Assembly (NCBI GenBank): GCA_947625105.1
Contig: CANQMZ010000004.1
Coordinates: forward strand, 1 to 36,141
Source: an uncultured Parasutterella sp.
GTDB taxonomy: Bacteria; Pseudomonadota; Gammaproteobacteria; Burkholderiales; Burkholderiaceae_F
DNA length: 36,141 nt
Direction: 5' to 3'
This document shows, piece after piece, positions 10,801-36,141 of this stretch (its first letter is position 1; each line of letters opens with the position of its first letter). The position numbers and the translations under genes are program-made. The notes beneath the pieces were generated by a model. It was not told the origin of the DNA and did not search any database. It saw only the letters and a program-made list of their open reading frames with translations.

Positions 10801-12114
10801 GTGGATTTAACAACAAAATGTATTTTGATTTTTTTCTTGATTTTGGCAGCCGCTTATTTTGCCATCGCTGAGATTTCTCTAGCCGGATCAAGGAAAGTGA
10901 GACTAACTCAAATGGCGGAAGCAGGAAACAGTTCTGCTCATTTAGTGCTTAATTTGCAAGAAAAACCAGGTCCTTTCTTTTCTGTTATTCAGATCGGAAT
11001 AAATGCGGTGGCCATCTTGGGAGGCATAGTAGGAGAATCTGCCTTCACGGACGTTTTTTCTGACATCCTCAAATGGGTGGTTCCGGAAGAATTTTTGGAA
11101 ACGGTCTCTTTTATCTGTTCGTTTGTCCTAGTGACAATGCTTTTTGTGATCTTTGCCGATTTGATCCCCAAAAGAATTGGTCTAAACAAACCGGAGGAGA
11201 TATCGGTCAAGTTAATTCGGTCTATGTTGGTTCTGATTACCGTTTTGAAACCGCTAGTGTGGTTTCTGACGGTTATCTCCAATGCGATTATGAGACTATT
11301 TGGGTTACCAACGCAGAACAAAGACAAGATTACCAGTGAGGATATTGTCGCTACGGTAGATGCAGGCGCGGCTGCGGGGTTGTTAGCGCCAAATGAGCAG
11401 GCGGCGATTGAAAACGTGATGGATTTGGAAAGTCGGTTGGTTCCCAGTGCGATGACAACGCGTGATTATGTTGTCTATTTCACGCTAAACGAAAGCTATG
11501 AAAGCATTGCCCGGAAAATCGCTCAAAGCCCGCACAACAAATTTCTCGTTTGTGACCGTGACATAGATCACGTGGTGGGTTATGTTGATTCCAAGGACTT
11601 ACTTAAGAAGGTTATCAAGGGAAAGTCTTTTTCGCTAAAGGATGAGAATTTCATTTCTCCTTTGCCAGCAGTTCCTGATTCTTTGACTCTTACAGAGGTT
11701 TTATCTCTTTTTAAAAGCCAAAGAGCAGACTTTGCCTTTGTGGTTAATGAGTATGCGCTAACCGTGGGAATTATTACTCTTAATGACATCATGAGCACAG
11801 TCATGGGAGAGTTTGTTTTGACGCCAGACGACGCCCAAATTGTCCAAAGAGATGACGGCTCTTGGCTGGTCGATGGCGCAACACCGATAGACGATGTTGA
11901 AAGAGTTTTTGATTTTGGGAATTTACCCGAGGATGAAACTTATGAAACCGTGGCTGGTTTTATGATGTATATGCTCAGAAAGATTCCAAAACTTACAGAT
12001 CGCGTTGAATATGACGGCTATCGGTTTGAAGTCATTGATATGGAACAAAACCGTGTTGATAAGATCTTAATTACAAAGATCAAACGGAAAGAAAAAGAGA
12101 ACGGAGACAACTAA
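10801..12114 (+). CDS. CNNM/CorC-type membrane protein with CBS pair
   Basis: This 437-residue inner-membrane protein belongs to the family annotated as hemolysin-like or HlyC/CorC (YtfL, TlyC). In order it has a DUF21/CNNM transmembrane domain (about residues 1-190, several hydrophobic helices and AYFAIAEISLAGSRKV), two CBS domains (about 205-330), and a C-terminal CorC_HlyC domain (about 345-430, DDGSWLVDGATPIDDVERVF). Relatives have been linked to magnesium or sodium export and polyamine stress; the direct role here is uncertain. It starts with GTG behind AAGGAAG and appears monocistronic. Confidence 0.85.
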   Translation: MDLTTKCILIFFLILAAAYFAIAEISLAGSRKVRLTQMAEAGNSSAHLVLNLQEKPGPFFSVIQIGINAVAILGGIVGESAFTDVFSDILKWVVPEEFLETVSFICSFVLVTMLFVIFADLIPKRIGLNKPEEISVKLIRSMLVLITVLKPLVWFLTVISNAIMRLFGLPTQNKDKITSEDIVATVDAGAAAGLLAPNEQAAIENVMDLESRLVPSAMTTRDYVVYFTLNESYESIARKIAQSPHNKFLVCDRDIDHVVGYVDSKDLLKKVIKGKSFSLKDENFISPLPAVPDSLTLTEVLSLFKSQRADFAFVVNEYALTVGIITLNDIMSTVMGEFVLTPDDAQIVQRDDGSWLVDGATPIDDVERVFDFGNLPEDETYETVAGFMMYMLRKIPKLTDRVEYDGYRFEVIDMEQNRVDKILITKIKRKEKENGDN

Positions 12115-12142
12115 CCAGAACGACAAGAGACGATTAAAAACC

Positions 12143-12239
12143 CAAACTCCTGCGAATTAATTCCTCGAATATTTTTTGGGTTGTGAAAATTTTTCTTGCT
12201 TAAGATAAAGAAAATAATGTGGGAAGTTATTTTTTATCA
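12143..12239. repeat. Copy A of a ~95-bp dispersed repeat
   Basis: It aligns by eye with 34921-35017 from AAACTCC through the core GTGAAAAT.TTCTTG, TAAAGAAAAT.AT and the AT-rich end TTTTT...ATCA. Most of the core is identical, with a few substitutions and 2-3 small gaps. TTCTTG-16 nt-TAATGT inside it could be a weak promoter. The copy lies 29 bases after the CNNM stop; copy B lies 32 bases after the pyrE stop. Confidence 0.65.
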
Positions 12240-12272
12240 GAGAGGTACAGAGACCATCATTCTGCTGCCTGA

Positions 12273-12473
12273 AGGAGAAAAATTCTCGTAGAAGCTGGAT
12301 ATTGCGGGGCACTAATCAGAGGCATGACTGGTGTTTCGAGAAAGAGGGGACTAGCCAAGGAGCGGCTTTACCAGTTTCTCAGCAAGACTGGTAATCCATC
12401 ATTTAACTCTACCCTGGAAGTTTTCTGCTCATTTGGAGTGCCGCAGCTTGTACCAGGCGTTAACTATCGCTAA
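12273..12473 (+). pseudogene. Relic of a HigA-like addiction-module antitoxin
   Basis: Reading in the frame ending at TAA 12471-12473, the translation contains GYCGALIRGMTGVSRKRG, then LAKERLYQFLSKTGNPSFNS and TLEVFCSFGVPQL. Intact antitoxins of this HTH family (probable addiction-module antidote, HigA/DinJ-neighbour type) typically read 'ALGDIARARGMT...TGLSREGLYKALS..GNPSF.TVLKVLKALGLKL', so the second helix-turn-helix and the GNPSF motif are recognisable. The frame opens after a stop at 12270-12272 with no start codon in the right place, the N-terminal half is missing, and no toxin gene is found upstream. It is too short for the ORF track. I judge it decayed. Confidence 0.6.
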
Positions 12474-12564
12474 TGACGTTTTTCGTTTTCTCAAACCGCT
12501 AGATATGTTGGTCCCAAACTCCCGAGTTATGAAACTTGATTGCTATATCCATCTAGCTAGTTGG

Positions 12565-34199: not shown

Positions 34200-34889
34200 A
34201 TGCTAACTACAGGTCAAGAATTTATTAAGTTCTGTATTGATTGTGACGTTCTGAGATTTGGCTCGTTTAAGACAAAAGCCGGAAGAGATTCTCCTTATTT
34301 TTTTAATGCAGGACTCTTTGATAACGGATCTAAACTTGCGCTATTTGCCGCTTTCTACGGTATGACTTTGTTAGAGGCCATCGAGCAAAAAGGACTTAAA
34401 TGCGACATGCTTTTTGGTCCAGCCTACAAAGGAATTCCTCTTGTGGCAGCAACGGCGACAGTTTTGGCAATGAGAATGGGAGTGAGTTTCCCGTTTAGTT
34501 TTAATCGGAAAGAAGTCAAGGATCACGGAGAAGGTGGTAACGTCATAGGAGCACCTATCGAGGGTAACGTGATCATTCTTGACGATGTCATTTCTGCCGG
34601 AACATCAGTTCGAGAATCCATCGAAATTATTAAGGCAAATGGAGGCAACCCTGCGGGCATCATTATTGCTCTTGATCGGATGGAAAGAGCAGGAGACGCT
34701 AAAAACATCAAACCACTATCGGCAGTTGAGGATGTTGAACAAACTTTCGGAATTCCCGTCATTGCGATCGCAACCCTCGAGGATCTTTTAGGTTACTTGA
34801 AAAAAACAAGAAAGAAGGCACTTTTGGGCAAAAGAGAAAAAATAGAGACTTACCTGAAAAAGTATGGGTCGCTAAAAATACAGAATTAA
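34200..34889 (+). CDS. pyrE: Orotate phosphoribosyltransferase
   Basis: PyrE converts orotate and PRPP to OMP in de novo pyrimidine synthesis. The 229-residue length is normal. It begins with QEFIKFCIDCDVLRFGSFK and KAGRDSPYFFNAG (orotate side), has FGPAYKGIPL and the flexible-loop Lys segment NRKEVKDHGEGG, and the PRPP-binding motif VIILDDVISAGTS. An imperfect hairpin (34882-34919) covers its stop; gene-poor DNA follows. Confidence 0.95.
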   Translation: MLTTGQEFIKFCIDCDVLRFGSFKTKAGRDSPYFFNAGLFDNGSKLALFAAFYGMTLLEAIEQKGLKCDMLFGPAYKGIPLVAATATVLAMRMGVSFPFSFNRKEVKDHGEGGNVIGAPIEGNVIILDDVISAGTSVRESIEIIKANGGNPAGIIIALDRMERAGDAKNIKPLSAVEDVEQTFGIPVIAIATLEDLLGYLKKTRKKALLGKREKIETYLKKYGSLKIQN

Positions 34890-34920: not shown

Positions 34921-35017
34921 AAAAACTCCCGCAAACGAGACCCGAATAATTTTGGGGTGTGAAAATATTCTTGATTGAGTTAAAGAAAATGATACGGTGA
35001 TATTTTTAAAAAAATCA
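34921..35017. repeat. Copy B of the ~95-bp dispersed repeat
   Basis: See 12143-12239. Shared landmarks in order: AAACTCC, GAATA.TTTT, GTGAAAAT.TTCTTG, TAAAGAAAAT, TTTTT and ATCA. The equivalent of the possible promoter is TTCTTG-16 nt-TGATAC. It is followed by the transposase-associated region, whereas copy A is followed by an antitoxin relic. Confidence 0.65.
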
Positions 35018-35040
35018 ATGCGTTATTGAGGAGTTTTATT

Positions 35041-35115
35041 ATGCCGTATCCTAGAATTTACGGTAACATCGGCTTTTCTTTTGCTCAAAAACCTCTATAC
35101 CATTGCCTACCTTAA
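35041..35115 (+). CDS. 24-codon ORF after repeat copy B (doubtful)
   Basis: ATG at 35041 follows GAGGAG by 8 bases and is read MPYPRIYGNIGFSFAQKPLY and four more residues to TAA. The ribosome site is good, but the product is short and unlike anything I recognise. It may be the 5' end of a lost gene or a leader peptide. Confidence 0.25.
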   Translation: MPYPRIYGNIGFSFAQKPLYHCLP

Positions 35116-35383
35116 CCATCGAGGTCTGATTAAAAATCCCCGGTTAAATACGTGGAGAGTTAAGCCTGTCAGAAAAAGGCGAAGAATCCACCCAGAAGTC
35201 TAAGCTTAATAAATAAGAGAAACCCTACAGACACGTAAAAGACAGCAAACAAAAGATGTAAACAATTGTGAAGCCTGTTTGCTTCAATGAACAGAGATTG
35301 TCAAAAATATCAAGCCTTTTATAGGCAAGAATCTTTGGCGACCAGGCGATCGTATGGCGTGTGCGAGGGCACAGCTTGCATCC

Positions 35384-35457: not shown

Positions 35458-36141
35458 ATGAACAAAGAATTTAGATCGTATATCAGGGAAGTCAGGCTGT
35501 TCGATGATTACTTTTTTGGGATCTTTTTTCGTGATGATCCGAAGTATATCGAGGTCGTCATTCAGGCGATTTTCAAACAACAGGGAATCCCCTCAGTCAA
35601 AGTCAAAGAGATCCACGTCCAGCATGACCTCGTTTCCCCCTACAGAGGAGTACGCTTGTCAAACGGGCAAGATACTACAGTGCCATGATTGACACCAATA
35701 CACTGGAGCAGGGTAAGGATTTCGACAAACTGCCAGAGAACTACGTGATTTTTATCACGGAGAAAGACTTTCGGGGTGATGGAAAGCCAGCCTATCAAGT
35801 TGAAAGGTATTATGTGGATGATCATAGGCCTTTTTCGGATGGTACGCATATTATCTTTGTCAACGGACAGCATAGCGGGGACGACCCTATTGGAATGTTA
35901 ATGCATGATTTTTCAAGTAAAGGAGCTAATGAGATGAAGAACGCTGTATTGGCTGAAAGAGCCCGTTTCCTTAAAGAAACCGATGAAGGACATAGTGAGA
36001 TCTCGCGTATTGAAGAGGCTATCAGAGACGAGGGAAGAGCCGAGGGAAGAGCCGAGGGAAGAGTCGAGGGAAGAGTCGAGGGAGAGGCTATTGGAATGGT
36101 CAAGGGAAGAGCCGAGGAAAAAAATAGTTTGGCTAAGAGAA
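35458..36141 (+). pseudogene. Rpn-like PD-(D/E)XK nuclease family transposase, core deleted and frameshifted, runs off window
   Basis: From ATG 35458 (behind AAGGAA) the first 67 codons read NKEFRSYIREVRLFDDYFFG ... QHDLVSPYRGVRL, the N-terminal half of the PD-(D/E)XK 'transposase' family. The family then continues with a segment like 'D.YA.DE.G..YDIEIQ' carrying the catalytic Asp and Glu-x-Gln. Here that segment is absent: after RL (35658) the reading frame changes and resumes at 35661 with KRARYYSAMIDTNTLEQG, YVIFITEKDFRGDG and HIIFVNGQHSGDDP, open to the window end. The second half is not in the ORF track. A C-terminal Glu/Gly/Arg repeat (EGRAEGRAEGRVEGRVEG) is typical of the family. Deletion plus frameshift make it non-functional as written. 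Confidence 0.78.
36030..36083 (+). repeat. 12-bp tandem repeat in the transposase tail
   Basis: There are four full units of GAGGGAAGAGCC or GAGGGAAGAGTC and one partial unit, encoding EGRA/EGRV. The last base pair varies only at one position (C/T) between units 1-2 and 3-4, indicating recent unit duplication. Confidence 0.9.

Follow-up and report, generated by a model that had tools for sequence, protein, structure and literature searches.

Two AT-rich sequences lying behind conserved genes on one contig of an uncultured Parasutterella sp. (designated copies A and B) are homologous, and they are tentatively regarded here, with somewhat less than even confidence, as the eroded remains of one accessory DNA segment that landed twice. 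The end of a low-copy mobile element or an internal duplication would fit the observations nearly as well as an inert leftover. No evidence was obtained for any present function, and the shared sequence probably does nothing now.

Extent and similarity of the two copies

Within the window, i.e., the whole 36,141-nucleotide stretch of DNA that was analyzed, copy A occupies positions 34921 to 35007 and copy B positions 12142 to 12235, both on the plus strand, as supported by local alignment with shuffles, core alignment, and sequence profile matches of 66 and 97 bits, respectively. The copies are 22.8 kb apart, share the same orientation, and each lie ∼30 bases past the stop of a gene. The local alignment of A against B scored 60, whereas 2,000 dinucleotide shuffles averaged 18 (SD, 2.8) and reached 34 at most, and in a comparison of every intergenic region of the window with every other, the runner-up behind this pair scored 24. 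Chance resemblance of AT-rich DNA was therefore rejected. An earlier, sequence-only reading had claimed that such a sequence occurs twice and had named shuffled AT-rich DNA as a check; its claim was borne out, the shuffles falling far short of the observed score. It had also aligned 34921 to 35017 with 12143 to 12239 over nearly their whole length, of which the similarity stood but the length did not. The strong core covers only 34923 to 34995 in A and 12144 to 12220 in B, in an alignment of 78 columns of which 59 are identical, 13 are mismatched, and 6 contain gaps; outside it the similarity falls off and is weak in the extension on the right to 35007/12235. The described placement behind conserved plus-strand genes was confirmed, with stops at 34889 (a phosphoribosyltransferase gene) and 12114 (a CNNM gene).

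Search for further copies in this genome and others

Searching the genome by blastn with either copy returned that copy itself and short chance matches only; the partner copy was missed, which called for more tolerant searches. A degenerate pattern built on the best-conserved stretch recovered both copies plus one match with two mismatches. Altogether, blastn, pattern, and profile searches yielded no additional copy anywhere in the 2.1-Mb genome (215 contigs), extending to the rest of the genome the earlier observation that the window holds no other copy, and a genome-wide repeat family was rejected on these grounds. The sequence profile scored B at 97 and A at 66 bits, with all other matches at ≤18 bits in 66 family genomes; because copy A had been extended by a few bases in the profile rows to keep the alignment in register, these two scores are not independent proof of relatedness, which the raw local alignment provides. 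No convincing copy was detected by the profile in the 66 other genomes of the family, congeners included, and nothing further was found in 399 sampled genomes of the order. Plasmid and phage searches revealed no relatives of the shared sequence. Two exact patterns each matched viral contigs three times, with no sign of the element's second half in the immediate sequence, and a literature search found nothing on this element.

Most of the weak profile matches checked in relatives sit within long open frames, suggesting that they are due to chance, and those outside such frames (L015, L109, L111, L118, and L120) all had E-values at the chance level over the genomes searched. The most similar of them, L111 (G006 C167:2982-3016, minus strand, in another genus), aligns with copy B over ∼40 bases and is likewise at the noise level. 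Thus, the search of the genome and relatives proposed by the sequence-only reading was carried out and returned A and B, with no convincing copy elsewhere.

Gene relics beside the two copies

Copy B follows a CNNM/CorC-type gene (10801 to 12114, plus strand; Pfam match), the product of which is 80% identical to its counterpart in Parasutterella excrementihominis and 78% identical to that in P. muris, the nearest named relatives. In both species and in a related MAG, only tens of bases lie between the CNNM gene and a topoisomerase gene convergent with it, and a clear hairpin can be read from the sequence of this gap in P. muris and the MAG. At B, the corresponding gap measures 450 bases, versus tens in the Parasutterella relatives, and no terminator-like site was found in it. 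Copy B abuts the C-terminal relic of an HI1419-type (RelE/HigB-like) toxin gene, located at 12220 to 12303 on the plus strand by protein-to-DNA alignment, which begins near residue 57 of intact toxins and contains a stop. Compared with seven toxins from genomes of the family, this relic gave a best score of 58 and a summed score of 294, while the sums for shuffles averaged 175 (SD, 11; maximum, 203). The strong similarity between A and B stops at 12220, where the toxin relic starts. It is followed by an HI1420-type antitoxin relic (12309 to 12440, plus strand), matching TIGR02684/PF21716 at positions 41 to 84 of 89 only; the match to TIGR02684, over positions 42 to 84, has an E-value of 6e-9 and a score below the curated cutoff. 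The module relic as a whole spans 12220 to 12475, its toxin lacking the first ∼56 codons and its antitoxin the first ∼40. Consequently, the earlier statement that the sequence stands just before relics of accessory genes holds at B. The possibility that the shared sequence is itself the body of the toxin gene was rejected, considering that the main protein alignments begin at 12220 without reaching into it. Separately, the 10-mer CCCAAACTCC occurs at 12141 to 12150 and again at 12513 to 12522, 372 bases apart, bounding most of the scar at B, possibly by chance.

Copy A follows the phosphoribosyltransferase gene (34200 to 34889, plus strand; Pfam Pribosyltran), named pyrE in the earlier reading; 20 of 21 genomes have a match to it. 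A short gap separates this gene, in several relatives, from the next one, which reads as convergent and, by inspection, is a candidate gatB. The gene beyond the gap at A is not seen, since a damaged gene reaches the contig end before the next core gene, and we infer that this gap is convergent as well. The debris 3′ of copy A matched no family in any frame tried, and the scar at A showed neither a detectable toxin relic on either strand (not significant) nor a match to the antitoxin family TIGR02684. One frame at 35034 to 35201, reading ...LYTIAYLNHRGLIKNPRLNTWRVKPVRKRRRIHPEV, stays open for ∼55 codons after the copy, also with no family match. The damaged gene (35461 to 36141, plus strand, frame broken) resembles the PD-(D/E)XK nuclease family transposases (PDDEXK_2) weakly: the match at 35649 to 35864, ∼650 bases beyond copy A, has an E-value of 9e-4 and falls below the curated cutoff, and the gene continues to the contig end with a repetitive, EGR-rich C-terminal part. 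Therefore, the statement about relics of accessory genes is weaker at A. A query joining the two PDDEXK_2 frames with X gave a similarly weak match, and a hand-made speculative peptide query gave none; neither carries weight.

An association of the shared sequence with PD-(D/E)XK transposase or toxin-antitoxin genes, as the sequence-only reading had predicted, fails outside this contig. A profile search of 21 loci retrieved with TIGR02684 from this genome and its relatives did not find the sequence, indicating that it is not a standard upstream region of this toxin-antitoxin family. Moreover, two better PDDEXK_2 matches are present on other contigs of the genome (C201 and C11), and these genes lack the repeat, A and B being its only copies in the genome. 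The surroundings of copy B resemble an HI1419/HI1420 module in having relics of both genes immediately downstream, but no such relic occurs at A and the toxin-antitoxin loci searched are without the shared sequence. Similarly, a damaged member of the PD-(D/E)XK transposase genes (PF12784) lies downstream of A, but at that distance of ∼650 bases, and the C201 and C11 genes are not accompanied by the repeat.

Origin and possible function of the shared sequence

The suggestion that the sequence is a conserved small RNA or regulatory element received no support. Neither copy matched an Rfam family, and predicted folding was no better than that of shuffles (z-scores of −0.86 and −0.06 on the plus strand and −1.28 and 0.27 on the minus strand), which, together with the absence of the sequence from congeners, gives no support to a conserved small RNA. 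A promoter, also suggested earlier, was not supported by scans of both copies: no promoter-like or terminator-like site is common to A and B, B has no promoter-like site, and only the left end of A is overlapped by a weak terminator-like site, on the minus strand. One of the best-preserved stretches, TTCTTGnTTrAGnTAAAGAAA, forms a loose palindrome, as might be expected if the sequence were an operator, a regulator binding site, or a working small RNA conserved in the species; given the results above and the decaying genes beside both copies, such a role appears improbable. Still less probable is a regulatory element or small RNA specific to the species and located behind genes, held by selection while the neighboring accessory genes decay. 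A protein-coding origin, in which both scars would retain remains of the same gene, is comparably remote. Two runs of mismatches show three-base spacing, and with frames counted along B a single phase holds 8 of the 13 mismatches, but this pattern is not significant (P ≈ 0.13), the gaps are not in threes, and the frames tried matched no family; a decayed coding gene was thus rejected on the lack of significant codon periodicity.

MITEs, REP, ERIC, and similar small intergenic repeats are short, repeated, and located between genes. Copies A and B are likewise short, apparently noncoding, repeated, and intergenic, but they differ in being only two and in lacking shared terminal inverted repeats, a conserved hairpin, and a carrier element. 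A homologous pair in accessory-gene scars fits the insertion of one type of DNA, as the sequence-only reading had proposed, but the mobile-element family that it envisaged does not emerge from two copies with no relatives. That the copies are a solo end or nonautonomous (MITE-like) remnant of a low-copy mobile element inserted behind genes is unlikely, though worth considering, as both have the same orientation and the same position relative to a gene and as CCCAAACTCC recurs 372 bases from the start of B. This explanation is weakened by the low copy number, by the lack of terminal inverted repeats or any target-site pattern common to A and B, and by the lack of plasmid or phage relatives. The direct repeat CCCAAACTCC is found at B only, with no matching one around A, and the relatives are too diverged to provide a base-exact empty site.

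Ectopic duplication or gene conversion within the genome, by which one site was copied from the other, is also rather unlikely. It would account for only two copies, 22.8 kb apart on one contig in the same orientation, but the flanks of A and B differ. Moreover, the closeness of the copies is partly a selection effect, considering that the finding exists only because both fell in one window. As for att sites bounding a 22.8-kb island, this idea is not favored, since the stretch starts with the CNNM-topoisomerase neighborhood that Parasutterella shares and the genes scanned between the copies (topoisomerase, peptide deformylase, MFS, pseudouridine synthase, and exonuclease-type) have an ordinary chromosomal look.

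The tentative reading of A and B as eroded accessory DNA is consistent with a homology far above shuffle level, with the 450-base gap in place of tens of bases, with a toxin relic that begins where the similarity ends, with the lack of a significant codon pattern, stable fold, or shared promoter or terminator, and with the absence of the sequence from the other family genomes, congeners among them. A piece of accessory DNA would have arrived twice downstream of conserved genes, each time where relatives have a gap between two convergent genes; one type of incoming DNA would then explain both copies. This piece may derive from the leading end, or upstream region, of a gene cassette of the toxin-antitoxin type that had been acquired, and after landing both inserts would have decayed, leaving B next to a truncated toxin-antitoxin module and A next to debris with no family match. 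Against this stand the occurrence of only two copies on one contig, which local duplication explains as well, the missing toxin relic at A, the searched toxin-antitoxin loci that lack the sequence, and a source element found nowhere searched. The arrangement suggests that accessory genes land and decay in the intervals between convergent housekeeping genes in this Parasutterella-like gut bacterium; beyond this genome, such a two-copy relic, traceable by strain comparison, has little relevance. Elsewhere in the window, a tRNA on the minus strand (1 to 71) is cut by the start of the contig.
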